From Posidonia oceanica (taxonomy: Eukaryota > Streptophyta > Magnoliopsida > Alismatales > Posidoniaceae): a stretch of DNA of 64,000 nucleotides. Below are positions 1-53,244 of the stretch, in pieces. Position 1 is the stretch's first letter, and the number at the start of each line of letters is the position of its first letter. The DNA lies in contig JAZBRS010000035.1 in NCBI GenBank assembly GCA_037176725.1, forward strand, positions 49,424,001-49,488,000, given 5' to 3'. The translations under genes were made by a program, and so were the position numbers. Under the pieces are notes generated by a model. It saw nothing but the letters and a program-made list of their open reading frames with translations, did not search any database and was not told the origin of the DNA.

Positions 1-189
1 CTATCCCCATGACGCCAGGAACGTCATAGGGGAAAGAGGGAAAGAATGATACCACGGGGCGATCAAAAGATGCCCCTGGTGTCGGGATGACACCAGGGGT
101 TGGCCAGCGCGTCCATGGCATCGAAAGCAGAGAGTGATGACAAGAGTGTCGTGCTTGTCAGACGAGTAGTTTGGGGTACCAGCCTGCAA
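1..189 (-). other. Element A 3' UTR module with 11-bp perfect hairpin
   Basis: An 11-bp perfect inverted repeat sits at 73-83 and 89-99, with a 5-nt loop that reads ATCCC on the sense (minus) strand. The same module, with related flanks (a 'GCCAGGGGCGCTTCG'-like stretch before it and 'GGGGCATCTTTT' after it), occurs in element B (about 32080-32165) and twice in element E (about 50800-50870 and 51080-51165). Stem bases differ in a compensatory way between copies. It lies between the 113-bp array and the missing 3' LTR. Confidence 0.6.
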
Positions 190-690
190 GGGACTCAGCT
201 GAGGGCGATCAGCTGGGGACTCAGCTGGGGATGACCAGCTGAGAAGAGTGTCAGGTTGACGGACCTTTCGCCGAGCAGTTTGGGGTGCCAGCCCGTAGAG
301 ATAATGATCCAGCTGGGGGCGACCAACTGGGGACTCGACTGGGGTGATCAGCCGAGAGGAGTGTCAGGTTGACGGACCTTTCGCCGGGCAGTTTGAGGTG
401 CCGGCCTGCAGAGATAAGGATCCAGCTGGGGGCGACCAACTGGGGACTCGACTGGGGTGATCAGCCGAGAGGAGTGTCAGGTTGACGGACCTTTCGCCGG
501 GCAGTTTGGGGTGCCGGCCCGCAGAGATAAGGATCCAGCTGGGGGCGACCAACTGGGGACTCGACTGGGATGACCAGTCGAGAAGAGTGTCAGGTTGACG
601 GACCTTTCGCCGGGCAGTTTGGGGTGCCAGCCCGCGGAGGACAGCGGTCCAGCCGGGGATGACCAGCTGGGGACGCCGGACAGCGGAGCT
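190..690 (-). repeat. 113-bp tandem array in element A 3' UTR
   Basis: About four copies of a 113-bp unit (equivalent points at about 251, 364, 477 and 590) lie downstream of the DUF7745-like gene. Each unit contains 'GACGGACCTTTCGCCG' and several CAGCTG/CGACTGG inverted repeats. Perfect or near-perfect hairpins lie at 196-215, 221-242, 309-330, 335-355, 561-581 and 649-670. Tandem arrays at this position are known in Tat/Ogre elements, where the hypervariable 3' UTR can seed satellite DNA. Short open frames crossing the array are by-products of the 113-bp period and are not genes. Confidence 0.85.
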
Positions 691-947: not shown

Positions 948-2148
948 CTAGTCAACCCGGGCCTTCTTTGGCTGCCTGGAGTCGGGGAATAAGGGGCCGC
1001 CTGGCAGGACTTCAGTGATTGGCCAGAGCTGTCAGACTTCAGCTTCATAATCAGGAGTGCATCCAGTACCTCTCACAGCTGCAACGTCTGTAGATTGGAC
1101 CCCATGCTGCATCAGACTAGCAAGCTTCTTGGTTGGGGCAGTGGTGCTGAGAGGATAAGTCTGTAGAAGCTCGGGCGCTGTACTGTCAATGAAGGCGCCC
1201 TGGTGGAAGCCGAACTGGCGCATGACCCTGATTGGATGGTACTCTACGCCTGCTGTGAAGCCCGGAAGAATGATCAGCCGCGTGTCACGTGCGCTGAAGA
1301 AGATTGTGAATGGCTCTGCTGCAGAGGGAACGATGCGCCAGATCACAGCGTCGTCAGTCAGTGCTGACAGCCTCTCGTACTCGTCTTTGATGCTCTTGTC
1401 TGCTCTGGTACGGGCGCTGCTGCAGTAGGCTTCGAAAGCATGCACTTGAGGGTGCAGAAGGTCCATCTCTAAGTGCACGGTTAGCCAGACTTGTATGAGT
1501 GCTCCGCAACCGTGGAAGTGGCGGCAGCGATGAGAAATGCGGTCCAGCCCGCGATAAGTCTCTGCCAAGACAACTGGTGCCAGATCTATATGCTGGGTCA
1601 CCACAGCTAGTGCAATCTCTGCGACCTCGATGGCCACTGTCAGTCGGCCATGAGTGAAGATTTCACCCAGAAAGCGGATGACAAACCCTCGGAGCCACAG
1701 CTCATCTCCGAGGTCAGCACGCTTGTTCAAGATATCATCAAAGTGTGCAAGGCGAAGCATAGGCTCTGGTCCATTGGTGCAGATTAGCTTCTGTTGGCAG
1801 TCTTGAGTGGAAGAGCCCAGTCAGTTGGCTCAGGACCCGGAGATATCCGTCGCGCCTCATGAAAACAGGCGGCCCCAATATCTTTGAAAAGCCGCAGATC
1901 CGACGCACCTCTTCCAGTGTAGGTGTCAGCTCAGTCTTGTTGAAGCGGAAGACATGGTGCGCCGGCTTCCAGAATCTCGCGGCGGCACACAGAAGGTGGC
2001 GGCTGACCTCCACATCAGCAGCCTTTAGCAGCTTGGTTGGTATACCCCACAGGCGCAACTGTTCACGGTCAACTTGAGTGAGCCTGCCGATCCATTCTCG
2101 CAGGGTTTCCGAGCAATGTGCGGGAGTCAGCGGAGTAGGAAAACCCAT
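948..2148 (-). pseudogene. DUF7745-like accessory gene of element A, frameshifted
   Basis: This gene lies downstream of integrase, in sense orientation. Its start is ATG at 2148, with residues MGFPTPLTP. Recognisable stretches are 'CAAARFWKPAHHVFRF', 'ELTPTLEEVRRICGF', 'LAPVVLAETYRGLDR' and 'PIRVMRQFGF'. These match the general pattern of the plant DUF7745 / plant-mobile-domain-related family (recognised from memory; function unknown). The frame shifts by one base near 1800-1815: element B has one base fewer there and reads straight through. A TGA at about 1032-1034 cuts off the last 28 or so codons, which are open again to a TAG at 948-950 and match the C-terminus in B. The intact protein would be about 400 residues. 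No membrane segment or signal peptide is evident, so an envelope role is not supported. Its presence in two elements at the same place argues for a real, once-selected gene. Confidence 0.7.
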
Positions 2149-3577
2149 TATACTGGTTGCAGAAGACAGGCTGATTACTGCAAGGCTTGAAGGTACCTGC
2201 TATCAATAAACAGTCAGATCTCGCAGGTATGTAATCACTGACAACAAGCAGAATCTGAGACTGAAAATGTAGTTCCAATATGCATCTAGGCAAAGTGATA
2301 ACAGAACATAGCAATTAAGCACTGATAAGCAAGGGGATTCTGCAGCAGTCTTGCGGGCACGGGGGCGAGGGTTGGCAGGAAATCTGGACCAGCGCAGCTT
2401 GAGTGTCGTCGACGTGCCTCTGCCGGGGAGAAGTACTGCCTCAGGGCCTGAGCGTGTTGCAGAGCGGGAGAAATTGGCGGAAGGGGAAAGGAAAGAAGGA
2501 AGATGCATGAATGCAAGATGCTAGTGATATGCTCATGAGGATGAATATTACCGGATGAATAAGTATGCTTGAATGGATGGGTATGCTTGGGTGGATGGGT
2601 ATGCTAGGGTGCCCTCAGCATACGGAGTGCTTTGGTGCCTGCTGCAGAGGAAGGGAGTGGTCCTTGACTCACTGGGCCCTACTCAAACTCTCGGCTTATT
2701 GGTGGCGCTCCGGAACAGGTTGTTGGCATTATACAGGTGGTGATGTGGTGAGGACAGGCTACTGGCTGCACTCTCAGGACCTACACCTATTCTTTCAGCT
2801 CTCTTTTTTTTTGAAAGGTTTCTCCCTCATAGGTATGCAGTCTTTCTCTGCCCCTAGTTAGGAGAAGGTATGTGTTTGCTCTTGGGAGGATGTGGTAGAC
2901 CCCTTTTTCAGGCTTGACATGCTGGAGATCTCTAGTAAAGCATGGGGGATAGCGGTGCCTGTGTTTTTCGGGCTACCTTTGCCTTTTTCTTCTTCTTTTT
3001 TTTGTTTTGCTTGCTTTTCTCCTTTTTTTGTTTTTGTTTTTGTTGTATCTCTTTTTTTCCTCTCTTTTTTTTTTTGCTTGATCTTTTTCCTCTTTTTTTT
3101 TTTAGGCTTTTGCTATCCCCATTCTGGTGGCAAAAGAAGGGTGCTTGAATTGTAATGGATTCAGGTTTTGGGTCTGCTGTGTGATGGGTAGAAGGAGCAG
3201 GGTTAGACTGCACACCCCTATCTCTAGGGCCGGCTTCTGTCTTCGTCTTCTGTTCCTTGGAGGTGCCCAAACCTAGATGTCTATTCTCACTTTTTTCAAG
3301 CTCACAACCTAACATTTTTTTCTCCCTCAGAGGTGTATGTCCTTGTGAGATTGGGCAGTTCGCCTGTCCTTATTGGTGGTGGCTCCCTCACTTGCTAAGA
3401 CATCTAAGTAGTGCCAGTTGAGGCAGGGTGACTCTTTCCAGAGCAGGCAAGCACTTCCGGTTGTCATCACCGGGCAGAAGATGCGATGTTTGAGATGACG
3501 ATGATGATGATTTGAAAAGAAAGAGTGCAAGAGCTGAGAGGATGATGCTGATGATTTGAAATGAAAGAGTGCAAGAG
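2149..3577 (-). other. INT to accessory-gene spacer with polypurine tract
   Basis: Non-coding spacer of about 1.4 kb. On the sense strand it carries a long A/G-rich run (plus-strand pyrimidines at about 2981-3105), matched in position by a purine tract in element B (about 29557-29800). The part at 3310-3510 aligns with B at 29320-29480 and shares 'GGAAGTGCTT' and 'GAGGGAGCCACCA'-type text. Just before the accessory ATG, A and B share 'CAGGTACCT' (sense) and a TTGCAG or TCTGCAG, which could serve splicing of a subgenomic RNA; that is inference. Confidence 0.55.
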
Positions 3578-18821: not shown

Positions 18822-19605
18822 CCGATAAGTCCGATATCTTATCATTCTATTCTTTTATTCATTTGCCGGCCGATAAGTCCGATATCTTATCATCTCTTTC
18901 CCTTTGCCGGCCGATAAGTCCGATATCTTATCATCTCTTTCCCTTTGCCGGCCGATAAGTCCGATATCTTATCATCTCTTTCCCTTTGCCGGCCGATAAG
19001 TCTGATATCTTATCATCCCTTCATCCCCTCTTTGCCGGCCGATAAGTCCGATATCTTATCATTCTATTCTTTTATTCATTTGCCGGCCAATAAGTTCGAT
19101 ATCTTATCATCTCTTTCCCTTTGCCGACCGATAAGTCCGATATCTTATCATCCCTTCATCCCCTCTTTGCCGGCCGATAAGTCCGATATCTTATCATTCT
19201 ATTCTTTTATTCATTTGCCGGCCGATAAGTCCGATATCTTATCATCTCTTTCCCTTTGCCGGTCGATAAGTCCGATATCTTATCATTCCTTCATCCCCTC
19301 TTTGCCGGCCGATAAGTCCGATATCTTATCATCTCTTTCCCTCTTTGCCGGCCGATAAGTCCGATATCTTATCATCTCTTTCCCTCTTTGCCAGTCGATA
19401 AGTCCAATATCTTATCATTCCTTCTTTCCCTTTGCCGGCCGATAAGTCCGATATCTTATCAGTCCTTCATCCTCCCTTTGCCGGCCGATAAGTCCGATAT
19501 CTTATCATTCTATTCTTTTATTCATTTGCCGGTCGATAAGTCCGATATCTTATCACCCCTTTCCCTTTGCCTGCTGATAAGTCCGATATCTTATCAATTC
19601 CTCTT
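18822..19605 (+). repeat. GATAAG/CTTATC hairpin array of element C (18 units)
   Basis: Eighteen units of about 40-48 bp, each with the core GATAAG-TCCGATAT-CTTATC, a 6-bp stem with an 8-nt loop, preceded by GCCGGCC and separated by pyrimidine-rich spacers. Spacer types recur in order ('TCTATTCTTTTATTCATTTG', 'TCTCTTTCCCTTTG', 'CCCTTCATCCCCTCTTTG'), so amplification also happened in blocks of several units. It looks superficially like a CRISPR array but is the 3' UTR of a retrotransposon. Confidence 0.9.
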
Positions 19606-19775
19606 TTTCTTATCAATATCAATCATCAATCTCCTCTTTTTCTTATCAATATCAATCATCAATCTCTCCCTTTTCGTATCAATATCAATCATCAATCTCT
19701 CCTTTTTCTTATCAATATCAATCATCAATCTCTCCTTTTTCTTATCAATCAATCAATCAATCACTGCTCTTTTCG
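19606..19775 (+). repeat. Short tandem repeat, TATCAATATCAATCATCAATC units
   Basis: About five units of 34-37 bp, built from 'CTTATCAATATCAATCATC' with a pyrimidine spacer, ending in an (ATCA)n run. It joins the two hairpin arrays of element C and may derive from decayed units of the first array. Confidence 0.8.
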
Positions 19776-20790
19776 GTTGATAGGACCGTAAACTATCATC
19801 TTGGGCCGATCCCCGATTTGGCTCGCAGTTGTGTTATACGGCTGACATCCAGTAACTGTCCCTCGTAATTGCACCTTCCAGTTGATAGGACTGTAAACTA
19901 TCATTCTCTGGCTGATGATCCAAAACTCATCCTTAGCTGATACCCAAAACTATCACTTGCAATTACGTTATACAGCAGACATCCAGTAACTGTCCCTTGC
20001 ATTTGCAGCTTCCAGTTGATAGGACTGTAAACTATCGCTCCAGTTGATAGGACTATAAACTATCGTTCCAGTTGATAGGACTGTAAACTATCGTTCCAGT
20101 TGATAGGACCGTAAACTATCACCTGCAATTGCATTATACGGCTGATATCCAGTAACTATCCCTCATGATTGTGCTTTCCAGTTAATAGGACTGTAAACTA
20201 TCGCTTCAGTTGATAGGACTGTAAACTATCATTCCAGTTGATAGGACTGTAAACTATCGCTTCAGTTGATAGGACTGTAAACTATCACTCGCAATCGTGT
20301 TATATGGCTGATATCCAGTAACTATCCCTCGCAAATGCCCTTTCCAGTTGATAGGACTGTAAACTATCGCTCCAGTTGATAGGACTGTAAACTATCGTTC
20401 CAGTTGATAGGACTGTAAACTATCGCTCCGGTTGATAGGACCGTAAACTATCATTCTCTGGCATTTGCGTTATACGGCTGATATCCAGTAACTATCCCTC
20501 ATGGTTTGTGCTTTCCAGTTGATAGGACTGTAAACTATCGCTTCCAGTTGATAGGACTGTAAACTATCGCTCCAGTTGATAGGTCTGTAAACTATCGTTC
20601 CGGTTGATAGGACCGTAAACTATCCCGCACAACCATGTTATACGGCTGATATCCAGTAACTATCACTCACAACTGCCTCCGGTTGATAGGACCGTAAACT
20701 ATCGCTTCCAGTTGATAGGACTGTAAACTATCACTCTCGGTTGATAGGACCGTAAACTATCCGGCCGATAAGCCCGACACCTTATCAACT
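19776..20790 (+). repeat. GATAG/CTATC hairpin array of element C
   Basis: More than 20 units of about 23-27 bp with core GATAG-GACTGTAAA-CTATC, or GACCGTAAA in the loop. They are interspersed with a longer block containing 'GGCTGATATCCAGTAACTATC'-type units and 'TGCAATTGC' text at roughly 150-180 bp intervals. The array ends with one GATAAG-type unit near 20765-20786 that has changed (AAGCCCGACACCTTATC), linking the two array types of this element. Confidence 0.88.
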
Positions 20791-21319
20791 TCTTCGCGTG
20801 ACCTTGTCCCAAGAAGGCAAAGTCCAGCATCCCTTTGCGATAGGAGAGTTGGCCTCTCTCCCCTCGCACCCCTTTTTGCTAGCTTGCTCCCTGGGCAGGG
20901 ACAAGCTGCACCTTTTCTTCCCTGCCTTGTCGCGCAAGTTTGGCCTACCCGCCAGATCTTTGCGCCACATCGCGCCTTTCCTTTAGCATTTCTTTTGCAT
21001 CATCTCTGCACCTTCTTTGCTAGCATTGCATACTAGTCTAACATCATCAGTATCATCTGCACCACATCAGCATTCTAACTGCACTAGCTTTTGTACTAAC
21101 ATCTGCATTGCATTTGCAATAGCATGCATTGCATACTTTGCACATCATCCATCTGCACCTGCATTTTGCGTTGTGGCAACGGGCTACGATTTTTGGTGCA
21201 TCCGCCGAATAAGTAGCTCACGCCCATAGCAAACCTCTGCTCCCGTCGGTCAGATGGGGTGTCTTGTCAACCCTGAGCAGCGGCCTCGCTTCGCTTGACC
21301 TTGCTCAGGAAGGGGCATC
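20787..21319 (+). other. Conserved 3'-terminal block and PPT of element C
   Basis: About 530 bp shared with element B (33220-33742). It includes the text near 'GCGCAAGTTTGG', a 'GCATTGCATA'-rich low-complexity part (20990-21170), then 'GGTGCATCCGCCGAATAAGT'. It ends in the purine tract AGGAAGGGGCATC at 21307-21319, directly before the 3' LTR, which is the plus-strand primer. The 80 bp around the PPT can fold: an upstream TGGGGTGTCTTGTCAAC faces GTTGACACCCCA of the LTR start, with CCTGAGCA facing TGCTCAGG inside. Confidence 0.75.
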
Positions 21320-24300
21320 TGTTGACACCCCATTTTGACAGGCTTGAACCAATTGGGACCTTCTGGTGACTTTTGGATCTAAACCTAGGTCAAAACAACC
21401 ACAACCTTTTTCATCTTTCTCTTCAAATCAAGCCTAAACTTGACCTAAGCCTACACCTATTTCCCAAGCCCAAAACTTACCCAAAAACCATAGGAAAACC
21501 TATCACTCCCAACTTAGCAAACCTACCCAAACACTTAGAAATTTTCAACCCGAAACCATTCCCAAAAACCCTAGAAAACCTAGGTAAAACTACCCCCTTT
21601 CTACACCTCAAAACCCTTCCAAAACTTTCTCAAAACTAAACCAAAGCCCTAGAACCAACACTAGAAACCCTAGGATACACATTCCCCAATTTTCACCCCT
21701 TTTCAAGACCTTTAAGCCCTCCATTATCCTTTTCTCTCTCTTGGATTATTCTTTTTTCTCTCCTCTCTCTCTCCTGATTATCCTCCTTCTTTGCATCCCC
21801 TTTTCTCCTTTTTTCTTACCTGGCTGTGGGCCCCCCTTGTGCTTCTATCTCTTCTCAATCTTATTCCTATTTTTATCCTATTTTTAGCATTTTTTCTAAC
21901 TTTCAAAAAATTATTCTCTTTCAACTCCTCTCTTTCCCCTTTATTCCTCATTTTTTCCCTTTTCTTCTTCCTTCTCCTTTTCTTTTTTTCTCTTTTGCTA
22001 AATCCCTAAAAATCCTTAAAAACCTCTAAAACTCTAAAACAAAAGGGAAACAAACCAAAACCCTAAGAAAAATAATTAAAAAACATTAAACAAACAATTA
22101 AAAACCTAAACCTAACCAAATCTAGCTAAAATAGAAAACTAAGAGTGCAACTGAAAAAATACAAAATAAACAAAAGAAAATGCTGTAAAATCAAGAAAAA
22201 AACCAAAATACAATCAAAACCAACCAAAAGTGAAAACCCTATCAAAAATAATCAAAAAGCAAACCCTAAGAAGAAGTAAAACAATCAAAAACACTAAGAC
22301 AAATAATTAATGAAAAACTTAACTTAACAAATCTAAAAAGGAACAATTTAAAAACTTAATTAAAAAGGAAAAGAGAAACAATTAAAGACTTAAAAACACT
22401 TAATTAAACAAGAAGAAACTTAACTAAAAAACATCAAGAGAGCTTAACAAACAAAAATCAAAAAACAAATCAAAGACGACTTAAGAAAGAAAGGCTAAAA
22501 TCCAAAGATCTAAAACCCACTCTAATTAATTTAAAAACAAACTTTAAAAAAATCCTAATTAACATCCCAAGTACTTAACAAGAAAAAACATAATTAAAAA
22601 ACAAGTTAAAAGGCTTAACAAACATTTAATCAAAATAAAAAACAAATCAAAAACAAAGAAAACCCTTAAAACCCTAATCAAAACCAAAATCCCTCTAAAC
22701 CTAATTAACTAACCAAAAACAATCATTAAAAAAACTTAATCAAGGTCCTAACTTAAAACACAATCATTCTAATAATTTTATCTATTTTTATTTTATTTTT
22801 ATCTAATTTATTTCTCCTCTTTTTCCCTTCTATTTCTCCCTTTTTTCCTATTTCTTTTTCTTTTTCTCCTGCTGGGCTCAGTCCAGCCCGTTCCCACCTT
22901 CCTTCTTTCTTTTCTTTCTTTCTTTTTCTTTTTCGGCTCGCGGCCCGGCCCGCGCCTTCCACCCGCCTTCTTCCCTTCTGCTTCTTCTTCCTTCTTCAGT
23001 TCCTCCTCCCGCGAACAAACTCCCTCCTCTTCTTTCAAATTCAACTTCTTCCCTCTACGTCCAGTCGGCCTACAGATCGCCTTTCCTCTCTCAGCACTCA
23101 GCGGATCTTCCGGGAAGGCATTTACTGCCCGTCTTCTCGCCGACCGCCTCTCCATCAGCAGCAGTGCTCCCGCTGGTGGGGATTTGAATCCCAGCGCGCG
23201 TCTGTCCTCCCCAGCTGCTTAAAAACTTCCAAGTCTTCTCCTCCTTCGACTCTTCGCATCGTCCTGAGAGAGAAAGCGTCCAGCACCCAGAATCCTTGCA
23301 ATTCTCCTCCCTTTCCTCTGCAAAATTCAGACCTTTTCCTCCTCTTTCTCCTTGCTGAAACCAACAACGGTTCCAGACCATAAATCGCACCCAATTCCTC
23401 CCCCAACCTCACCCAGAATCCCAGCATCGCAGCCCCTCCATCCCTCAGCCTTTCCACTCCAGAAACTGCCCCCGAACACCCAAAATTCTCAGCAGAACCC
23501 AACTCCTTTCCTTCCAGAAATTCCCGACACCACAGGCCCCCATTTCGTCCCAAACTCCACCCCCTAATCCACCAGATCACCACCTTCCTAAACCACCCAA
23601 GCCTTCAGCCCAACTCTCACCACAGACCAAGCCTACCACCACAAACACCTACGCCTTTTTTCTGCCCGAAACCACCACACCCGCAAACTCCATCCTCAGA
23701 CCTCCAAAGTCCAATTTAACCACCCAGAACCCTTCACCCAAGCTCCAGCAAGTCGCCGGCATCCTCCAACTGATCCAGAGAGCAGCAGACATCCATCCCC
23801 ACCTCCGGTGACCAGCTGTGAACCCACTGAACCCATTTATCGTGCCGGTCATCGCAGCTGCCCTCCGATCATTCAGCAAGCTCCGGAGCAACGCACTGAG
23901 TAGAACCAGATGCCCAAAAGCCATCGGAGACGCCCGCAGCAGCCAGGCCGAGCTCACCGCCGACCTCTGGATCAACCGACGTCGGGAGGACGCTCCAGCA
24001 ACGGGAATAGGTATTTCTCTTCATCCCTAGGTTAGTCTCCCTCTTCTCTTGCTTTTCCGCCCATCAGCCTAGGATTTCTCTCTCTCCTGTGCCGAGTCAA
24101 CGCCGGGTCAACTCTGTCTTCTCCGGTGAGCTTCGAGCTCGTCCCGCCGCTCCGGTCTGCAGAACGCCGCTCCAGCAGGCGCCCTTGCTCCGCACGGACC
24201 CCAGAAGCATGTCCCTGCCGTCAGAACTCGCCGACGCCGCGCTGATCGGCCGGCCTGCCTCCGAGCAGGTCTGCAGACCTCCGGTGACTCCTCCGGCTTG

Positions 24301-27093
24301 CTCCAGGCAGCGTCGCTGCTCGCCGATGCTGCTCTGGCCTCCGTCGAGCTCTGGTGAAGCCCGCCCGCCAGTCTATGCCGCACCAGCACCCCCTTTGCTC
24401 CCTCTGTCGGCCACTGGTAGCAACTGCTACAGTGGTCGACGATCTGTTGTTATTGTGCCTTTATTTTTTGCTATCTATGCTATTTTACCATATATTGCAT
24501 TATTGGTCTCAGTTCTTGCTTTATTGCTCTCAGGTCTTTCATCTGTTTAAATCCAATTAATTCTGAATTAAAATCATATAAAATTGCATGAAAAATATGT
24601 AGTTCTTTTTATTTGCATGTCAGTCCTTTTACTGTGCTTTCCTTCAGTAATAAATTTGATTCTGGCCCTCCAGCTTTGCATTATTACATGTTAGTCCTGC
24701 AGTTAAATAATCTGATTTAATCCTCTAAGTTTGCCATATAAAATTGCATTTTAGGTCCTTACTGTTTTCCATAATTGCAATTTAGTCCTCTGTCTTGTTA
24801 ACTTAGCTTTTATTTTCCAATTTTTGCTTACTACATTGCATCATTTCCCCCATGTTTTTTGATTTTTGCATATAGGACCTTCCTCAATGCACAGTAGTCA
24901 TTTTAATGCATATTTTCCTTATAAAATTGCATTTTTAACCCTGCATGATTTGAAAATTGCATATTAGCCCTCTGTCTGTCATTTAAATGCATATTCTGCT
25001 TATAAAATTGCATTTTAGCCCCCACATGTTTGGAAAATTGCATATAGGTCCCCCATCTGCATTCCTAGACCCACTAGATCCCTGTTTTGCTGGAAAAATT
25101 GCATTTTGGACCCTAATGATTTCAAAATTGCATTCTAACTTGCCACATGATTTCAAAAGTTTGTCCTGATGCATGCTCATCTTGGAAAATTGCATTTTAA
25201 ACCTTGTCTTTTGTAAAATTGCATGCAGACTCTCCTTTTTCCAAAACCCTTGCATAAAAGCCCCAAACTTTTCAAAATCTTTGCATTTAGACCCCCATCC
25301 TTTCAAAAATTGCATTTAAGTCCCCAATTTTCTGAAAAATCACCCCTAAGTCTTTTCTTGCATTCTACATGCATTGCACTCATGCATTCTTGCATTTGGC
25401 ATCCTTTGCACACACTTAAGCACTCCTAGCTCCCATTTACATGGGAGGACCTGTTTTGCACACCCCTAGGACCCCCTGTACACTTAGATCAATTCTTCTC
25501 CCCTGTTTTGGCTCTTCTGCCTTGAAGCTGGGATATCTTCCAATCCGACCGTTGGATCTTCTCAAATAAGCTACCCGGACGACCCCAGTGGAGCGCTCTT
25601 CAGCATGGACTAAGCAGATCTCAGATCAGGCCTCAGATTTTCCAGGTAAGTCCTTCTGAACCCCTGCACAGCATTCGTTTGCATACCATTTGCATTGCAT
25701 GCATCATTTTCGCTTTTTGTTTCCTCGAACATGTAGAATAGGACTTCCTCTTCTTATCTATCAATTCTGCTCCCCCTTTCATGTATTCCCAAGTGTTTTG
25801 TGTCGTGTTTCCCCTGGATTCACCACTTATTGCGACTTTCTTCCCCCTTTTCCACGATCCGATCGCACCGCGAGCTTTGGGCAGCGTGCGAGACACATCG
25901 TGGGGCGGTTCAGTGGGAAACAGTCACAAAGCGGTGGTAATCCCTCCACTTGCTTATTTTACCCATTGTAGGTCTTCACACCTACTCTACGTGGCCCTTA
26001 AACAGTGTCTGTTCTCACACACGCACTGTTTGCTTCTCCTTTCGCTTCTCTTGTCCTCTCTCCTTGCATTTGCATCTGCGTGGTTTTACCGATGTTTTAT
26101 TTCGCCGTCTTTGGCACCGTTTTGCTTGCCTGCTTTGTTTTTGGCACCGTTTCGCGTGCCCGCTTCGTTTTTGGCACCGTTTTGCATGCCCACTTTGTTT
26201 TTCGCACCGTTTTGCGTGCCCGCTTCGTCTTTGGCACCGTTTCGCTTGCCCGCTTTGTTTTTGGCACCGTTTTGCGTGCCTGCTTCGCTTTTGGCACCAT
26301 TTTGCGTGCCGCTTCGCTTTCTCGCACCGTTTTGCGTGCCGCTCCACTTTCTCGCACTGTTTTGCATGCTGCTCTCGTTTTCTTGCACCGTTTCGCGTGC
26401 TGCTCTCATTTCTTGCATTGTTTCACGTGTTTTACGCCATTTTCTCTTGCATGTCGCCTGCATTGCTTGGTTTTACCGTCGTTTTGCTTTTTCGCTTGCA
26501 TTTGCATATAGGGCAGTGATGCTTACTGCCTGGAGTTCTCACGAGCTAGGTTTCGCCCGGTTCGGAACACAGACAGCGCTGCTGAGCATTTAGACTGCAC
26601 GTTTACTTTCCTTGCATTGCATCCCACCACTTAGAGCACACCTTTGAGCATTCATTCAGGCATTCATTGGCATTTAGGCATTTAAATCTGCATTCCCTTG
26701 CATATGCGAGCGTAAGCCTAGAAAGACCGATTCTCGGGCGTGTCGGGGGTGCCTAACACCTTCCCCACGCGTAACAGGTGTCCTTGCCCAGTCTTTTGGC
26801 CCGCAATGACCATATCGCCCTTATCCTAGGCATGAGTCATCTCATTTGCATGTATTTGCATTTGTTTCCCATTGCATAGCTTTGCTTTGCATTTCTTGCT
26901 TGGTTTTGCGTGTTAGTCCATGCATTTCCCCGATTTTCCTTGTCTCCCGATAATGGACACGGTGGCGACTCTGATTTGTCTTATCTTCTTCCTTTCTTAC
27001 CTTTTCTCCTCTATTTTAAGTGTTTTCGAGTTGAGCCCTCCTCCTCGGACATCGTCGCCAATAGTAAGCCTGATTCTGATTGGGATTACTACA
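21320..27093 (+). repeat. 3' LTR of element C (5774 bp)
   Basis: Starts TGTTGACACCCC and ends GGGATTACTACA, the same termini as LTR A, so A and C are one subfamily. Zones are in order: CT-rich with 'GATTATCC' words (21720-21990), extremely A-rich (22010-22750), GC-rich (22860-24540), 'TTGCATTTTAG' degenerate repeats (24560-25430), a CAG-GTAAGT donor-like site (25643-25651), the 30-bp minisatellite (26095-26440), the conserved block (26703-26850), and a PBS-like GGTGGCGACTCTG (about 26961-26973). No gene is seen. Confidence 0.9.
26095..26440 (+). repeat. 30-bp minisatellite in LTR C
   Basis: About eleven units of 29-31 bp with the core GGCACCGTTTTGCGTGCC. Many units can form a GGCAC/GTGCC stem, but others (for example GCACCGTTTTGCTTGCC) cannot, and the mismatches are not compensated, so a structural role is not supported here. 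Confidence 0.85.
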
Positions 27094-29124
27094 GCACTGC
27101 ATAGAAATTAAGGCATTATATGATGGCATTCCCAGTTCAGCTCTTGTACTAGCATGATCCTATCAAGTTCCTCTTTTAGAAGCCGACTATGGTGGGCAGA
27201 TGTGTCAAGTGGCAGGTGTTGTTATCTCAGTACGACATCACCTTCGTCACACTGAAATCCATGAAGGGCCACGCCATGGCAGATCCCTTTGCTGATTTTC
27301 CTCTGCCTGAGTACCAGCCTCTCCAGACACAGTTCCCTGACGAGGATATCCTTTTTGCAATGGAGGACTCTAAGGAGAAAGACCTTGAGGACCAAGAGGA
27401 ATGGCAGCTATACTTTGATGGAACTGTCAACAAGAAGGGCCGAGGCGTAGGCACAGTGTTGACCACACCCCAAGGACAGATGATTCCTTTTGCAAGGAAG
27501 CTGACTTTCACATGCACAAACAATGAAGCAGAATATGAAGCGTGCATCCTAGGATTGAAAGTCGCCCTCGAGCATAAGGCGCAGAAGCTACATGTGCACG
27601 GCAATGCCATGCTGGTGATCTCTCAAGTGAATGGCAATTAGAAGACAAAAGATCCAAAACTTGTGCCATATCACGAACACCTGTTGAAGCTAATCGAAGA
27701 ATTTGGGAGCATCTGCTTCACATACATGAACAGAGCAAAGAACGCATATGCAGACGCACTAGCAACCCTAGCATCCTGGCTCCGTATACCTGAAGACAGT
27801 GCAGTAGATGTATCAGTTACCTGCATAGAGCAGCCCGCGCATTGCATGAACATAGAGGAGGTAGATCCAGCAGAAGAGCGGCCGTGGTATCATGACATTA
27901 AGGCTTTCCTGGAGTCCGGCAGCTTTCCGCCTAGCACCACAACAGCAGATAAGAGAACTTTGGCACGTCTGGCGTCGAAGTATGTGTTAGGGGTAGGGCA
28001 GCTATATAGAAGATCATACAATCAGATGCTATTACGTTGCCTGAACAAGTCAAAGGCTGACATGCTGATGCTTCAAGTGCATGCAGGGACCTGTGGCCCG
28101 CACATGAACGGCGTCCTCCTAGCCAAGAAGATCATACTCCAAGGCTATTTCTGGTTGACCATGGAAGTGGACTGCTGCCGCTTTGTGTGTAAATGCCACA
28201 ACTGCCAGATCCATGGTAACTTTATCTAGCTCCCCCACAACAGCTGCATAACATGTCATCGCCATGGCCTTTCTCCACCTGGGGGATCGATGTCATTGGC
28301 ACAATTCACCCTACTGCTTTGAACAGTCATCGCTTCATCCTAGTGGCAATGACTACTTTACTAGGTGGGTGGATGTAGCCTCTTATAAGACAGTCACCGC
28401 TGTGGTGACAGAAAAGTTTATCATGAACAATATCATTGCCCGATATGGGGTCTCGTACTCCATCATCTCTGATAATAGCACGAACTTCATTGCCAAAAGG
28501 ACCGAAGAGTACCTGCAGAGTCTCAAGATCAAGCATCACAGGTCCTCGCCTTATCGGCCACAAATGAATGGAGTAGTGGAGTTTGCCAACAACAACATTG
28601 TCAAAATCATGAAGAAGATGGCAGAAACCCATAAGGATTGGCATGACAAGCTCCCGTACGCGCTCTGGGCGTACAGGACATCAATTCGGACCTCGACAGG
28701 AGTTACCCCGTACTCTCTGGTGTACGGCATGGAGGCGGTGTTACCTGTCGAAATGGAGATCCCCTCACTGTGGATCCTACGAGAAGCTGAGTTGGAAGAG
28801 GCAGAATGGGTCGAAGACCGATGCGTCCAACTGAATCTGATTGATGAGCACCGACTACAAGCCATGCACAATGCTCACTATTACCAGAAGCAGATGGCTC
28901 GAGTATTCTTGAAGAAAGTCCATCCCAAAAGCTTCCAGCCAGGAGATCTCGTTCTGCGTGCCATTCATTTACCTAACGGTCGAGGCAAATTCTGACCTAA
29001 TTGGCATGGCCCATTTGTGGTCAAGCAGATCGTCTTGTGCGGCGCTGTAACTCTTGAGGACATGGACCAGGTCGAACAGTCCGAGCTGATCAACCTGTGC
29101 TACCTCAAAAAGTACTATCAGTAG
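27094..29124 (+). pseudogene. Element B RNase H, archaeal-type RNase H and integrase
   Basis: The first bases encode the end of the gypsy RNase H ('KLRHYMMAFPVQLL' with stops). The archaeal-type RNase H follows, with YFDGT, NNEAEYEA and HGNAML; the last has Asn where A has the catalytic Asp, a likely inactivation. The integrase has its HHCC finger (VHAGTCGPH ... CHNC). Its core has Asp in SDNSTNF and Glu in NGVVEFANNN; the first catalytic Asp region (GDRCH in the shifted frame) is disturbed by a 1-base deletion near 28227. Further breaks are a TAG at about 27640 (a Trp codon in A) and a TGA at 28993-28995 within 'GRGKF*PNWHGPF'. The frame ends in KKYYQ, TAG at 29122-29124. Element A lacks about 1 kb of this region, so B is the only full integrase C-terminus in the window. 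Confidence 0.9.
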
Positions 29125-30518
29125 CCTGCGGCAACCATTGTAGATCCTTCTTCTCCGTCTCTCCTCTTGCATTCCCACCCCTTGCACACTTCCGTACCTC
29201 TTTTCGTCCTATCTCCCACATCTTTACCCCTATACATCTTCATGCATCGCTTTGGCCTACCTTCTGCATTTTCATCACTACATTCCCATACATTCCGTCC
29301 TTTATCCCTTTCATAATCATCATCGTCATCCTCATAAAATCACGCATATCATTCAGCCCGGTGATGAAAACCGGAAGTGCTTTCCTGCTCTGGAAGGAAT
29401 CTATCCGACCTCACCTGACACTACTTAGATGTCTTAGCTAGTGAGGGAGCCACTACTCAGTGAACACGGGCGAAATGCCCAACCACCTAAGGACTTACAC
29501 TCCCAGAAAAATGCTAGGCGTTAACCAGAAAAGAACACATGTCTAGGCTTGGATGCACAAAAAAAGAAAAAAAGAGAAAGCCAAAGTTCACACCCGAAGA
29601 TCCAAGCCCTACAATGCCTAGCCCCCGTGTCTCAAAAAGCCAGGCACCCATTTTCTCTAGGGTGGGGATAATAGAGACCTGCAAGCCTAAAAAAGAAAAG
29701 AAGAAAAGAAGAAGGAGAAAGAGAAACAACAAGAAGAAAAAAGAATGATAGAAAAGAAAAAAAAGAGAATGATAGAAATGAAAAAAAGGGAAAACAAAAG
29801 TCAACTCCAAAAATGAAGGCAAGTAGAGTAATCCTGCAACTTTCACCTACCCCAGAGAAGAATCAAAATACAAGACAGGTCCTCCTTGTCTCCAAGACAG
29901 GAATAGGGAGAGCCTCGCACACCTATATAGAAGCAAAAGAGACAAGAAAAAGGAAAAGAGTAAGTGTAAGTCCTTGAGAGTTTGGCATGGAGCCTAGCCT
30001 CTCTACACCACCACCAAGCACTACCAACATCCTTTTTTAGAGCGCCACCAATAAGTTAGGAGTCTGAGTAGAGTCCAGTGAGTCAGGAACCGCTCCCTTC
30101 CTATACAGCAGGCACCAAAGCACTCCGTATGTTGAGGGCAAACCACACCAATCATAAATCATGCATACATCTGCATCTCCAATCATCTCCTCTCCCTCTA
30201 ATCATTCTGCCTTGCAAAACTTGCTCTAGCGCTGAGACAGTACTCCTACCCAGCACACGTTGGCATCATTGAGCTGCGCTGGCCCAGAACTCCTACCAGT
30301 CCCCGCCCCAGTGCCAACAGAATCTCCTCTACTTATATGTGCTTAATTGCTATGTTCTGAATGTTAACTGCTGAATATGTTGAACTGCTTTACCAACTTT
30401 AGAATCTGCTTTCAGTCAGTGATTATGTGCCTGTGTGAAATCTAATGATCTACAGTCTTGGTAACAGGTACCTGAAGATTCTGCAGCAGCCATCTGCCTA
30501 CATTTTGCGGCCTACGCA
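29125..30518 (+). other. INT to accessory-gene spacer of element B
   Basis: A non-coding 1.4 kb. It has a pyrimidine-rich part (29145-29320), a block shared with A (29320-29480), an A/G-only tract of about 240 bp (29557-29800), then text ending in 'CAGGTACCTG' (about 30465-30475) and TTCTGCAG before the DUF7745-like ATG. The purine tract occupies the same place as in A and, as a smaller version, in E (about 51968-52020, minus). Confidence 0.6.
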
Positions 30519-31723
30519 ATGGATTTCCCTACTCTAGTGACCCTAGTGCAGAATCTTCAGAGACCCAGCGAGAATGGATCGGTAAGCTCACCAAAGATGA
30601 CTGCGAAAAGCTGTGCCTATGGGGCATTCCAACCAAACTGCTGAAGGCCGCTAATGTAGAAATGAGCCACCATCTTCTGTGCGCCGCTGCAAGGTTCTGG
30701 AAACCGGCGCACCACGTCTTCTGCTTTAGCAGAACTGAACTGACACCCACACTGGAAGAAGTACGCTGGATATGCGGCTTCTCCAAGATTATGGGACCGC
30801 CAATCTTCATGAGGCATGATGGATACATCGCAGTCTTGAGCCAGTTGACTGGGCTCTCTACTCAATGCTGCCAGCAAAGACTGATCTGTACCAGTGGGCC
30901 CACACCCCTGCTTCGCTTAGCGTACTTTGATGATACTATGGGAAAGCGTGTTGAACTCAGAGACGAGCTATGGCTTCGGGGATTTGTCACCCGCTTCCTA
31001 AGCGAGCTGATCTTTACTCATGGTCGAATGACAGTGGCCATCGAGATCACTAAAATAGCACTTGCTATGGTGACCCGGCAGATAGACCTAGCACCGGTCG
31101 TCCTGGCAGAGACATATCGTGGGCTGGACCGCGTCTCGCATTGCTGCCGCCACTTCCATGGCTACGGAGCACTTATACAGGTCTGGCTAGTCGCACACTT
31201 AGAGATGGACCTTCTACGCCCCTAGGTGCATGCTTTTGAAGCCTACTACAATAGCAGCCATGCCAAGACAATCAAGAGCGTCAAGGAAGAATATGAGAAG
31301 CTATCAGAGCTGACGAATGACCCAATAACCTGGCGTATCATCCCCTCTGCAGCTGAACCATTCACTGTCTTCTTCAACACACACGACATGCGACTGGTCA
31401 TGCTACCAGGATTCACTGTGGGTGTCGAATACCAACCTATCAGGGTCATGTGACAGTTTGGCTTCCGGCAGGGCACCTTCATCGACAGCACAGTGCCCAA
31501 GCTTCTTCAGACATATCCCCTCAGCACAACTACTGCAACAAAAGAGTTGGCCAATCTAATGCAGCATGGAGTGCGATCGACAGATATCGCAGCTGCGAGA
31601 GGCATAGGATGCACTCCTGAGTACGTGACCGAGGTGCAAGAGCTCTGGCCCATCAATGAAATCCTGCCAGGAGGATCCCTGTTCCCTAACTCCAGGAAAT
31701 TAAAGAAGGCCCGAACCAACTAG
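30519..31723 (+). pseudogene. DUF7745-like accessory gene of element B
   Basis: Homologous along its length to the gene at 948-2148 in element A. ATG is at 30519 (MDFPT), then a 2-base shift relative to A before 'REWIGKLT'. From there one frame runs to 31225 with 'CAAARFWKPAHHVFCF', 'ELTPTLEEVRWICGF' and 'LAPVVLAETYRGLDR'. A TAG at 31223-31225 stands where A has CAG (Gln), and a TGA at 31451-31453 where A has an Arg codon. The end 'PGGSLFPNSRKLKKARTN' is intact with a TAG at 31721-31723. It lies in sense orientation behind integrase. Function is unknown; it resembles plant DUF7745 proteins, which are often retrotransposon-borne. Confidence 0.7.
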
Positions 31724-32204
31724 GGCACTTATGCAGCTGCTAGTTTAGTTTCCTTTCAAGTTATGTTGTATCTTTTGGCCTGCCACAGGCATGTAATCAA
31801 TAGTTCTATCAATGCAAAAGTGTTTTGTACCGTCCGCTTGCACTTCAAAACTGCTTAATGCATTTCATAATCCTTGCCAACTGCATCTTGAGGCTCCTAG
31901 CCAGACTTGCTGCCAAAGTGATGCAGGAAAGTCCTCAGCAATCAATCCAGACGCCAAAATCTCTGTAGACCCACGCTGTCAACTCAAGCCATCAAGCGCA
32001 CCTGGCCGAGTCACCGTAGGGCTGGTACCCCAAACTACTCGTTTGACAAACACGTCAGTTTTGTCTATCCTTCGCTTTTCAATGCCAGGGGCGCTTCGAC
32101 TGTCTCCTGGTATCATCCTGATACCAGGGGCATCTTTTTTAGATGTCCTGTGGTATCATGCCTTATCGTTCCCCATCGATATACTTGGATGTCATGGCCT
32201 CCAA
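31724..32204 (+). other. 3' UTR proximal block of element B with conserved hairpin
   Basis: Non-coding. It shares short blocks with A (GCCTGCC-ACAGGC, 'GGTACCCCAAACTACTCG'). A hairpin at 32106-32128 has the stem CCTGGTATC / GATACCAGG and loop ATCCT. It is followed by a weaker second stem built from GGGCATC and GATGTCC (about 32127-32148). The module recurs in A and E with compensating stem changes. Confidence 0.6.
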
Positions 32205-33215
32205 TCTTCCTGGCTGATAAGTCCGTCATCTTATCAATCAATCACCTTTCCGGCTGATGGCCGTTAAACATCACCTTTTCGGCTGATGGCCGTTAAATAT
32301 CACCTTTCAGGCTGATGGCCGTTAAACATCTCCTTTCTGGCTGATGGCCATTAAACATCTCCTTTCCGGCTGATGGCCGTTAAACATCTCCTTTCCGACT
32401 GATGGTCGTTAAACATCACCTTTCCGGCTGATGGCCGTCCGGTTGATGGCCGTTAAGCATCACCCTTTCGGCTGATGGCCGTTAAACATCGCTTCCGGTT
32501 GATAGGACCGTAAACTATTGCTTCCGGTTGATAGGACCGTAAACTATCGCTTCCGGTTGATGACCGTTAATCATCACTTCCTGGCTAATAAGTCCGACAT
32601 CTTATCAATTCATCCCTCTTCGGCTGATGATCCGAAACTCATCACTCTTCGGCTGATGATCCGAAACTCATCACCCTTTCGGCTGATATCTAGTAACTAT
32701 CACTCGCAATTGCACCTTTTTAGTTGATAGGACCGTAAACTATCGCTTTCGGTTGATAGGACCATAAACTATCGCTCTTCGGCTAATGATCCGAAACTCA
32801 TCGCTCTTTCGGCTGATATCTAGAAACTATCACTTGCAATTGCGTTTTCCGACTGATATCCAGTAACTATCACTTACAACTGCACCTTTCCGGTTGATAG
32901 GACCGTAAACTATCGCTTCCAGTTGATAGGACCGTAAACTATCGCTTCCGGTTGATAGGACCGTAAACTATTGCTCTTCGGCTGATGATCCGAAACTCAT
33001 CACCCTTTCGACTGATATCCAGTTACTATCGCGTGCAGTTGTGTTTTCCGGCTGATATCCAGTAACTATCACCCTTCCGGTTTGATGATCCGTAAAACAT
33101 CGCTTTCCGATTGATAGGACCGTAAACTATCGCCTCCAGTTGATAGGACCGTAAACTATCGGTCCTGGCTGATGATCCGAAACTCATCTCGTTCGGTCGA
33201 TAAGTCCGATAACTT
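32205..33215 (+). repeat. Mixed hairpin array in element B 3' UTR
   Basis: About 40 short units, almost all foldable, with at least five stem types in one array: GATAAG/CTTATC, GATAG/CTATC, GATGA/TCATC, GATG/CATC and GATA/TATC. The loops share the TCCG or CCGTTAA/CCGTAAA theme. Successive units keep the leading 'GGYTGATR' word but swap the stem. The array sits between the accessory gene and the 3'-terminal block, as in A, C and E. Confidence 0.85.
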
Positions 33216-33742
33216 ATCACTTCCTTTGCGCGACTTTGTTCTAGGAAGACGAAGTCCCGCATCTCTCCATAGCAGGAGAGGGTGCCCCTCTCCCTTCGCG
33301 CCTCTTTTGTTTCGGTTTCCCCTTTTATGCGCGGCTCCAGCCGCCTTGCTTGCTTGCTCCCTCGGGCAGGGGCAGGCTGCCCCTTTTTCCCCTCTCTGTT
33401 GCGCAAGTTTGGACTAGCTGTCAAATTTTCGCGTTGCATCGCAGTTTCTCTTAGCATCCTTTTGCATCAATTCTACACTTCATTTTTATAACATTGCATG
33501 CTAGACTAATTGCATTGCATCATCAGCATTGCACCGCATTAGCATACATTGCATACATTGCATTCCATCAACATTTGCATCCGCATCCACATCTAGCATT
33601 TCGGCATTGGGTCGCGATTTTCGGTGCATCCGCCGAATAAGTGGCTCACACCAAAAGCATTCGGCTCTCTAGTCAATTGGGGTGTCTTGTCAACCCTAAG
33701 TAGTGGCCTTGGTCCCCTTGACCTCGCTCAGGGAGGGGCATC
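33216..33742 (+). other. Conserved 3'-terminal block and PPT of element B
   Basis: Alignable by eye with element C 20787-21319. It contains GGGGCAGGCTGCCCC (7-bp stem, about 33370-33384), 'TTGCGCAAGTTTGGAC', a 'GCATTGCATA'-rich part, and 'GGTGCATCCGCCGAATAAGT'. The purine tract CAGGGAGGGGCATC (33729-33742) is directly before the LTR. The upstream TTGGGGTGTCTTGTCAAC (33677 onward) is partly complementary to the LTR start. Confidence 0.75.
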
Positions 33743-38641: not shown

Positions 38642-40200
38642 TAGGTGCCATAGAGGCTAGACATCACTAAGCATGCATAAGTTGTAGATATAACCCAAAA
38701 ATAAGCAATATGCAAGCATGGCAGTAGATGTAAGCAAGCAGGGAAGTAGACGCTGGATGAATCAGCATCCAACGTTGGACGTGACTCACTCCAGCATCCA
38801 ACGTAGGCAAGCAGCACAATGATCTAAAGCATGAAGCACTGATCCAAGCAAGGATCAAAACAAGATACTAAGCATGCAAAGGCATCAAGGAACATGTAAG
38901 GAAGCATATACCAAAAGCTCATGAAGATGTAAGCAAAGCATGGCAAGCATGAAAGAAAATAATAGAGCAAAGGAAAATAGTGAACAGTTGGGTGTTGGAC
39001 ACTGCACTATGGCACGTCCAACGTTGGATGCACCAGGCTGTGCGTCCAACAAGTTGGGAACTTTCCCGGCCAAGGACAGTGGCCAAATTGGCTAAAAAGC
39101 TTAAATTAACTTGCTAGGAAGCAAGAGTGGCCGACGACGAGCATGTCCATATGCTCGGTGCTGGAAATAGGCGGGTGGATTGCTCCACCCACCTCCTCCT
39201 CCTCGCGATTGGAAAGCCAAGGTGGGGAGGGGTGTGTGCTCTGCTATAGTGTGGGCAAAACAAGCTAGGAACTTTACCACATGCATGCACGAGCTATGGG
39301 GATCGAAAGCCTACCTTGGCGCGGCCTGAAATGGCGTATCAGCTCTCGACCGGTCGGCGTGAAAGGTTGCGGCAGGCCAACTCCGGCGAGCTTGCTCGGC
39401 ATGTAGGAGGCACGGGAAAGGGAGCTGGAGGTCTGGGGATGATCGTGGGAGTTCGCTCTTGGTCGCTCAAGCTCTCAATTCCCTCTGGAATGGGTGTGGT
39501 GGTCTAAATTGGGCGGTGAAGTTGCTGTTTTGGTATTGGGTGCATGGGTTCAAGTGTTGGGTTGTAGGGGTTTTGCAGGTGTGGCAGAGGTGTGGCAGAG
39601 GTTGTGGCAGGCCGCTGTGTGTGGGGAGTCCCGAAGGGATGTCAGGTGGAGGCGTAGGGCTTATCAGAAGGGTGAGAAAGTCTCAGTGGTGGCAAGACGA
39701 GGCGGCCGAAGTCAGTGACTTGCTGTGAGAGCAGAAAAGGTGCTAGGGAGGAGGGGATGGCTTGGCAGGGTAGTTACTCACGCTTGGAGGCTAGTGGGTG
39801 GCTGTAGTGGGCTGAGGGGATGGCGAGTAAGTGTGTATGGGTGGTGGAGGGGACGGGAGGTGAGCCAGAGGTGGCGGAGCAGCCGCTGCAACTCCCAGGA
39901 CATTGGACGCTGGTGCATAGTGCGTCCAATGTTGGACGCTGCCCGTGCCAGCGTCCAACACGCCTAGGAGGCCAAAGGCTGAAATGGGCTTGGGCCTTGG
40001 TTTAAAAAGTTTTAAAAAGGTGTAAAAGACTTAGGTTGAGGTTTTGGGGTTTAGGTGGGGTTTTGGGTTGGTTTAGGAATGGGATTTGGTTTTTAGGTCA
40101 AAATAGGTTAGTCTGAAAAAAAGGAGAGCCATCCTAGAGTCCAAGCAAGCTTTCCAGAGTAGTCCACCATCTTCCAAGCAGTCAAAATGGGGTGTCAACA
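38642..40200 (-). mobile_element. Fragment F: partial LTR of a related element
   Basis: On the minus strand it begins TGTTGACACCCCATTTTGAC at 40200, identical to the LTR starts of the other elements, and runs to the B insertion at 38641/38642. It has no minisatellite and no coding sequence that I recognise. It carries repeated copies of the palindrome around CCAACGTTGG (38766-38781, 39015-39030, 39922-39939) plus half copies ('GCGTCCAAC'). The right flank is the leader of element D. It is most simply the first 1.56 kb of an LTR into which B was inserted, the rest lying left of B outside the window. Confidence 0.65.
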
Positions 40201-50540: not shown

Positions 50541-51345
50541 GGGTGATAAGTTAACGGACTTATCGCCGGATAGTTAGGGGGTATCGGCCCTCTGAAGAGT
50601 TGACGGACTCACCACCGGATAGTTAGGGCTATCAGCCTGAATGAGGAGTTAACGGACTCATCACCGGATAGTTTAGGGCTATCAGCCCAAATGAGGGTGG
50701 AAAGGGGGCGGGATACCAAACCAGAAGGTGCGGTAGAGGTCCAGAGACGCTCCCGCGACAATTGGGGATGTCAGCGCAATGCAGATGGAAGTGGGATACC
50801 AAGGGGCAGCAAAAAAAATGCCGCTGGTATCAGAATGATACCAGAGGACAGTCGAAGCGCTCCTGGCATCGAAATGCGAGGATGGATAGATGAATGGATG
50901 ATAGGTTGACAAACCTATCGCCGAGCAGTTAGGGGTGCCAGCCCGGGAGTGATAGGCTGGGGATGTTTGGTGGCTTGACTTGATGGTGTGGGGAATGCAA
51001 TGGAACAAAGAATGCAAGGTGATAGGTTGACGGACCCATCGCCGAGCAGTTTAGGGCTACCAACCCGATCAGGTGAGGGGGACGATACCATAGGGCAGCC
51101 AAAAAAGATGCCCCTAGTATCAGGATGATACCAGGGGACAGCCGAAGCGCCCCTGGCACCAGAATGCAAGGGTGGATGAATGGGCGGATGGATGATAGGT
51201 TGACGAACCCATCGTCGAGCAGTTAGGGGTGCAAGCCTGGATGCAAAGAATGAGGAATGCAGACGGATACATAGAAAACAGGAAACTCCCCGTGGTGGGT
51301 GTGTAATGGTCTCAGCGCGGGCATGCTTCGTAGCATCACGAGGTG
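50541..51345 (-). repeat. Hairpin array of element E, distal part
   Basis: Irregular repeats in which the text GATAGG-TTGACGGA-CCTATC (plus strand) and its variants recur, for example at 50545-50564 (GATAAG/CTTATC), 50900-50919 (GATAGG/CCTATC) and 51021-51040 (GATAGG/CCCATC, a G-U pair on the sense strand). A second type is GATAG-TTAGGG-CTATC at 50618-50633. The larger GGTATC/GATACC module appears near 50800-50870 and 51080-51165. Confidence 0.8.
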
Positions 51346-52780: not shown

Positions 52781-52880
52781 GATAGGTTAACGGACCTATC
52801 GCCGAATAGTTAAGGATATCAGCCCAAGGATGACAGGTTAACGGACCTATCGCCGAGCAGTTAGGGTTGCCAGCCCGATG
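52781..52880 (-). repeat. Hairpin array of element E, proximal units
   Basis: Two adjacent units. At 52781-52800 is a perfect GATAGG-TTAACGGA-CCTATC. At about 52833-52852 is GACAGG-TTAACGGA-CCTATC, a T-G wobble on the sense strand. Each is followed by a 'GCCGARYAGTTARGG' linker and a GATATC or CCAGCC word, as in the distal part of the array. Confidence 0.8.
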
Positions 52881-53244
52881 CTGGGAATGAATGCAGGAAG
52901 CAGAAGGGAATGCATGTTTTTGATGGGTTTTGTTGATTTTATGCTTTTTATGATTTTCAGGCAAGGTGAAAAACCGCAAAAACAAAACAAAACGAAAAGA
53001 AAAGACAATGCAGGGAACGAAAGAGAGGTAAAAAGGGCTTACCTATCAGCAACCTCGGGAGGGAGGCGCTGGGTTCGCTCCTACGCTGTTGATGTTGTCG
53101 GTGGGGTCCACTGTCGGCAGTGGGGGGAGCACTGGGGCTGCAAAAGTTGGAGAAGAACTTAGCTGGATGACGCTGCGCCTGGTCTTGCTGTCGACGCTGC
53201 CGTTGCATCTCCAAGCATCCCTCGGACGAGATAGGGAGGGCGGA
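52881..53244 (-). other. Junction between E gag and 3' UTR, donor-like site
   Basis: Sequence similarity to gag of A and D stops at about 53245; pol is absent. On the sense strand a strong donor-like GATAG-GTAAGC lies at about 53042, and a TTTTGCGGTTTTTCACC stretch follows. This could be a deletion scar plus remnants of an intron; neither is proven. Confidence 0.4.

Follow-up and report, generated by a model that had tools for sequence, protein, structure and literature searches.

Tandem hairpin units with linked arm changes in the 3' regions of nested Tat-clade retrotransposons from Posidonia oceanica

In this study, we asked what is shared by tandem repeats that look unrelated as sequence and lie at the same place in several retrotransposons, and how such a shared feature could be kept. 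The window, that is, the whole stretch of 64,000 nucleotides of Posidonia oceanica DNA that was analyzed, consists of nested LTR elements, four of which (A, B, C and E) have repeat arrays near their 3' ends. Their LTRs, of up to ~5.8 kb, start with TGTTGACACC, on the plus strand at 21320 and 33743 and on the minus strand at 18821 and 61174. Positions 40191–40200, immediately before the internal region of element D, carry a further LTR start motif of the minus strand, GGTGTCAACA, and LTRs have a 30-bp tandem array of their own (CACGCAAAACGGTGC type) at 45697–45963, 57403–57729, 13671–13900 and 26106–26400.

Element A (minus strand) encodes gag, protease, G-patch, reverse transcriptase (RT), RNase H, a second RNase H and an integrase zinc domain. 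One of its ORFs contains RT_RNaseH and RVT_3 together, in the order RNase H (75–178), RVT_3 (239–357) and Integrase_H2C2 (449–505). An additional, archaeal-type RNase H besides that of the RT is given as a mark of the Tat clade of Ty3/gypsy elements in the accessible part of PMC6317226; therefore, by its domain set including the second RNase H, element A is a Tat element, as the elements here are in general. The location of the additional RNase H between RNase H and integrase is that of the Ogre/Retand subclades. In addition, an extra ORF encodes a plant mobile domain (PMD; 30476–31222 in B, 1035–1820 in A), a feature which, according to the same portion of that source (Neumann et al. 2019, PMC6317226), occurs in 57% of Ogre elements and is typical of them, not required. 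By these criteria and that figure, a sense PMD ORF after pol points to Ogre, and the sequence suggests that the elements probably belong to this subclade within Tat. Protein relatives of the RT reach up to ~70% identity, the named ones among the best 120 listed being from plants, e.g., Vitis and Trifolium; no relatives were found in viral_contigs, searched with the RT protein and two hairpin patterns, or in genome_contigs, searched with the RT protein. Element E has gag alone among ORFs of at least 250 aa, and no stretch of at least 250 bp in it is similar to the pol of A, so that E may be non-autonomous. Its gag ORF lies at 53298–54275 (minus strand) in an internal region of 49.5–56.7 kb which, with no pol seen, retains two long hairpins besides units of classes VI and VII. 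The features of the window are as follows.

18822..19596, plus strand: class I array of element C, GATAAG-TCCGATAT-CTTATC units with a period of ~41 (tandem repeats, unit list, hairpin counts)
19779..20786, plus strand: class II/III/IV units of element C (GATAG..CTATC, GATA/GACA..TATC/TGTC, GATGA..TCATC; unit list)
20767–20786, plus strand: last class I unit of element C (unit list)
20787..21319, plus strand: region from the C array to the LTR, with the polypurine tract GGAAGGGGCATC at its end
21320..27094, plus strand: LTR downstream of the C array, starting with TGTTGACACC
30476..31222, plus strand: sense ORF with a plant mobile domain (PF10536, E 6.3e-16), upstream of the B array
32024..32039, plus strand: class VII unit of element B, GGTACCCCAAACTACT
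32103..32164, plus strand: long hairpin of element B (CCTGGTATC-ATCCT-GATACCAGG), then an alternative hairpin
32216..33218, plus strand: mixed array of element B, class I, II, III, IV and V units
33731..33742, plus strand: polypurine tract GGGAGGGGCATC preceding the LTR at 33743
39..100, minus strand: long hairpin of element A (CCCCTGGTGTC-ATCCC-GACACCAGGGG)
165..628, minus strand: class VII units of element A (GGCA..TGC[CT], GGTA..TACT) and partly broken class VI units (GAAAGG..CCTGAC)
1035..2199, minus strand: two sense PMD/DUF7745 frames of element A, 1035–1820 and 1741–2199, the latter stretch under the PMD cut-off and over that of DUF7745
50545..51233, minus strand: class VI and VII units and one class I unit of element E
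50787..50848, minus strand: long hairpin of element E, second copy in the sense direction
51077..51138, minus strand: long hairpin of element E, first copy in the sense direction
52781..52871, minus strand: upstream group of element E, class VI and VII units

The arrays sit between the sense PMD ORF and the polypurine tract, the position of the tandem repeats of Tat 3' UTRs, and those of C and B stop ~530 bp short of the tract and the LTR start. Domains, PMD ORF and position relative to tract and LTR thus bear out a preliminary description of this DNA, which had taken them for 3'-UTR arrays of Tat/Ogre elements. At one locus, L014, the end of the PMD ORF is followed by class VII/VI units, the long hairpin, a class I array, an AATC-rich linker, a class II/III/IV array, a last class I unit, ~540 bp, the tract and the LTR. 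Since unit types are side by side in this one element, we rejected the idea of four separately invented arrays. Within the window, A has the first segments, up to the window edge, and C the later ones; B has most types (no class VI unit was found), and E has class VI/VII units, two long hairpins and one class I unit. That the arrays are unlike as sequence, as had been reported, is therefore true, in part because nesting and the window edge show different segments of one composite 3' region. The LTR of A interrupts the C array at 18821/18822, cutting its 5' side, and the LTR start falls exactly within the hairpin array (18812–18824); LTR elements are reported to target palindromes in the available portion of PMC6911290.

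Pattern counts over the genome, which are lower bounds, gave at least 25,873 exact tract-LTR junctions, at least 28,496 matches to the long-hairpin pattern and, for one hairpin core, at least 151,533 exact copies in 2.96 Gb (reversed control, 0). Among the 18 first-listed junctions of contig C1, 17 had a class III unit on the same strand no more than 1.1 kb upstream, and the remaining one had a long hairpin at 1.9 kb.

Comparison with 40 dinucleotide shuffles confirmed that the hairpin arrays are real. Perfect hairpins (stem of at least 5, loop of 4–12) numbered 41 in C against 13.7 ± 3.0 in shuffled sequence (~3-fold), with 18 against 5.3 ± 1.8 in its class I array and 23 against 6.9 ± 2.5 in 19770–20790. 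The counts were 22 against 5.8 ± 1.9 in B 32200–33215 (3.8-fold) and 10 against 3.7 ± 1.5 in the main array of E, 50540–51240 (2.7-fold), and the excess was weak in the short E group at 52770–52885 (2 against 0.7 ± 0.7) and in A (7 against 4.5 ± 1.5). Controls from pol (29 against 36.1) and LTR (25 against 29.8) had no excess. Chance inverted repeats were accordingly rejected for C, B and the main array of E, the excess in A being weak. The stems were where they had been described: GATAAG...CTTATC occurs 18 times in C, as 15 identical cores and three loop variants, and the E units lie at 50545–50564, 50900–50919, 51021–51040, 52781–52800 and, for the one placed at about 52833, 52832–52851; B units were confirmed at 32216 and 33199.

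For pairing, we assembled 107 units (48 from C, 33 from B, 17 from E and nine from A) with 53 distinct cores. Units were selected visually among regex matches, many of which were left out in E, so that the choice favors hairpins, most in E; the register was set by loop class in 88 units and by hand in 19. In the 96 distinct units-with-flanks, the four outer pairs were standard in 371 of 384 cells, against 41–198 when the register was slid by 1–3. A single fold common to the elements, as had been proposed, is supported, with A as the weak member: its four GAAAGG/CCTGAC units are without two of the six pairs, while its GGCA/TGC[CT] units do pair. Some class IV matches (core GATGCACCGAAAATCGTA, 11 loci) proved to be the reverse strand of a near-LTR stretch and were discarded as units.

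In 120-nt windows, sense-strand folding had mean z values of −1.25 in C, −1.23 in B, −2.33 in the main array of E and −2.65 in A, and the antisense strand likewise folded better than shuffled sequence (−1.00, −0.84, −1.96 and −1.20, respectively). The short E group had a z of +0.29 (one window), and the means for pol and LTR were between −0.34 and +0.08, with certain LTR windows as low as any array window. Most unit types are weak when folded singly: only one of ten cores lies under −4.0 kcal/mol, and the value for class III is 0.0 kcal/mol. Rfam had no match at gathering score in the window.

Did the two arms change together? In the window, this was evaluated with a tree built from 92 distinct units, on whose branches the substitutions were placed anew 400 times as a simple phylogeny-aware null. 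The G statistic exceeded the null at pairs 2–5 (p = 0.0075, 0.022, 0.005 and 0.005), that is, at four of five pairs, and was within it at pair 1 (p = 0.46), whereas a count of paired units exceeded it at pair 4 only (p = 0.010; 0.15, 0.39, 0.10 and 0.39 for the others). Stem pairs ranked 2, 6, 8 and 19 among all column pairs, the top rank being a non-stem pair. By our reading of a genome sample (2,002 units from 63 sources), there are about four within-class double changes, at pair 4 of class I, pair 3 of classes III and VII and one pair of the long hairpin, against 0.49 expected (P = 0.00017, in a rough simulation with hand-set inputs). By the G statistic, linked changes exceed the simple null, and they are very abundant in copies, but the earlier claim that the arms changed together many times reduces to double changes on six branches in the window and these four or so in the sample.

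With so few independent events, and with single pairs reaching only p = 0.005–0.022 in 400 simulations, the pattern could be one of founder effects only: an ancestral array had hairpin types that were amplified, and many copies inherited a few chance doubles without constraint. The class I pair 4 double, found in much alike sequence context at the loci read, fits such an account. We nonetheless regard it as improbable, since four of the five pairs jointly exceed the null and the excess of within-class doubles, subject to the same roughness of simulation and inputs, is difficult to reconcile with it. Class I pair 4 is A-T in all 136 units from 13 loci not chosen for a variant, and an amplified A.C variant exists as one core in 60 units of 11 loci. 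Genome counts gave 400 G.U and 268 A.C copies, which are not independent, and the double was seen 236 times against ~0.7 expected from those singles; as the 20 copies read share similar contexts, we dropped this independence estimate as evidence.

Class III pair 3 in the 2,002-unit sample was T-A in 183 units, C-G in 53, C.A in three and U.G in one, and genome-wide (lower bounds) T-A in 86,860, C-G in 49,589, C.A in 1,102 and U.G in 314. The 1,416 intermediates are 1.0% of exact cores and possibly share descent among themselves, and there was no intermediate among the class III cores present in three or more loci. Class VII pair 3 was similarly divided in the sample (C-G 45, T-A 28, others 7). 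Over the 54 cores found in three or more loci, pair states were standard in 255 cases, G.U in 12, A.C in 11 and other in five. Sense-strand G.U is common at class VII pair 1 (64 of 80 units, 31 loci) and class VI pair 3 (35 of 53 units, 19 loci, with nine more units A-G), and the common states include one A.C, that of class I pair 4.

These states also bear on the possibility that the units are dyads acting in DNA, as inverted half-sites for a DNA-binding protein, such as a host GATA-type factor or the PMD protein, in an enhancer or insulator. Arms do begin with GATA or GATG in most classes, and the absence of strand bias described below fits double-stranded DNA. In DNA, however, the two common sense G.U states would be mispaired, and the spacing of the outer arms differs among cores, from 16 to 20 nt, whereas loops are 8–9 nt and stems 4–6 bp in the defined classes (partly by definition). 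We consider this explanation very improbable.

Copies resident in the genome gave a different picture from the propagated types. Counted over the pairs of classes I–III other than I-4 and III-3, they had two compensated doubles beside 195 singles, with 0.44 doubles expected by chance. Correction of one arm by the other on chromosomal DNA was therefore not visible, and the near-absence of doubles in resident copies indicates that the coordination arose in propagating lineages. Single transitions, split over the same pairs other than pair 1, were without strand bias (45 G.U and 45 A.C; 32 and 35 locus-events). The G-U pairs reported earlier on the sense strand of E are real, but without a general bias the argument for RNA drawn from them fails as a general test, and cells of the long hairpin were no more favorable (15 G.U, 24 A.C); G.U bias was thus rejected as proof of RNA. 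The preliminary description had itself named equal numbers of G-U type pairs on both strands as evidence against its proposal, and 45 to 45 is such an equality. The test has little power since most copies are probably dead insertions, and if the resident single changes are mostly post-insertion decay, as we infer, equal numbers are expected under any hypothesis.

Sparing of stems by shared non-deamination changes depended on the threshold (p = 0.019–1.0). When a change had to be shared by five loci, five of 26 loop positions and one of 30 stem positions were affected (p = 0.086), or none of 29 stem positions with the searched position removed (p = 0.019). Avoidance of stems was less clear at eight loci (p = 0.17 and 0.044) and was not seen at three (p = 1.0 and 0.74).

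The restriction of linked changes to shared, propagated types, with hardly any in resident copies, would be expected if the hairpins were a by-product of replication. Short inverted repeats would make reverse transcriptase pause and switch, so that hairpin units multiply and one arm is copied from the other, with no need of an RNA function. In addition, the accessible part of PMC7004042 ascribes tandem repeats at this place to abnormal strand transfer, and the number of class I units varies widely, from three to 37 per locus in 40 loci. This is the strongest rival because linked changes occur where reverse transcription acts, although we judge it on the unlikely side. It does not readily explain why both class III pair 3 states are present within the same arrays and yet chimeric arms make up only 1.0% of exact cores, or why the long hairpin, which is outside any tandem array, is still kept and has a compensated pair.

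In the long hairpin, that compensated pair was A-T in 65, G-C in 34 and A.C in one of the first 100 places listed, and it distinguishes 12 of the 53 aligned distinct copies. It is one of 11 pairs; among the other ten, one is invariant, seven change in one arm only and two deviate by unpaired cells only. One slid register gave a higher covariation value than the register used (0.148 versus 0.106).

The best reading of these results, which we hold tentatively and with a little less than even confidence, is that of a conserved RNA stem-loop platform, its function being inferred. The units would act as a multi-copy platform in the sense RNA of the element, whose loops and stems a protein of the element or of the host would bind. 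Candidates are Gag, the PMD protein and a factor for export or packaging; a role in stability would be a further possibility. Pairing would be maintained while elements are active, presumably by selection, and the number of units altered by strand transfer in reverse transcription. We favor such a platform because the non-tandem long hairpin also has a compensated change, because two two-arm states are abundant without an abundant intermediate, and because two common states are sense-strand G.U. Element E, in which pol was unseen, retains units, which is a further point for it. Against it are the good folding of the antisense strand, the weakness of single hairpins, the amplified A.C variant and the broken class VI units of A, and the evidence does not separate it well from a by-product of replication.

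Tandem repeats in the 3' UTR of Ogre/Tat elements were reportedly described by Macas et al. in 2009. In Tat-clade elements, such repeats follow pol, ahead of the 3' LTR, and vary in unit and length (Vondrak et al. 2020, PMC7004042); they occupy the same place as those reported here, whereas the present arrays have unrelated-looking units with a common stem-loop and linked arm changes, and the accessible part of that paper has no description of a fold. In Retand elements, a long region separates pol from the 3' LTR; it contains tandem arrays as well as extra ORFs, and its function is said to be unknown (Vicient 2025, PMC11963269, available text). The extra ORF is antisense TRP28 there and sense PMD here. 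In soybean, a minisatellite is located between the coding region and the LTR of the Ogre element Gmr9/GmOgre (PMC3305785), again the same place, and the main text, as far as accessible, is without any of six structure terms. The words hairpin and secondary structure do not occur in the accessible parts of PMC7004042, PMC11963269, PMC3305785 and PMC6317226, and in the literature searched, with subscription papers mostly outside it, we found no paper that describes hairpins covarying in the 3' regions of Tat elements. What is known, therefore, is the presence of tandem repeats at this Tat position; for a shared stem-loop with linked arm changes we found no earlier description.

Retroviral packaging or export elements are likewise structured RNA close to the 3' end of a retroelement. 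So are the 3' stem-loops of LINEs and SINEs (PMC5135761, in the portion available), a comparison of how things work and not of membership. Those systems usually have a single structure or a few, whereas here there are dozens of short units of changing number. It is conceivable, though unlikely, that few-copy and tandem stem-loops together form a multi-copy recognition platform whose loops bind the element's own PMD protein or Gag, and that such an Ogre platform would be a plant analogue of the retroviral elements. If a platform exists, Tat 3'-UTR repeats would be a functional module and not hypervariable filler. If the units are selected stem-loops, their function could be tested directly, and a structured-RNA origin would follow for satellites that arise from repeats of this kind.

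In the long hairpin, two arms, one upstream and one downstream, are alternative partners for the middle arm (32103–32164, plus strand; 39–100, minus strand; 60 copies tabulated), so this stretch could be bistable. In 94.1% of cells the alternative pairing is intact, and RNAalifold prefers it, but no double change was seen in it. Elements mismatched in the first pairing often retain the second. Some elements (G000:C1 matches) seem to have two long hairpins 0.2–0.8 kb apart, one A-T and one G-C.
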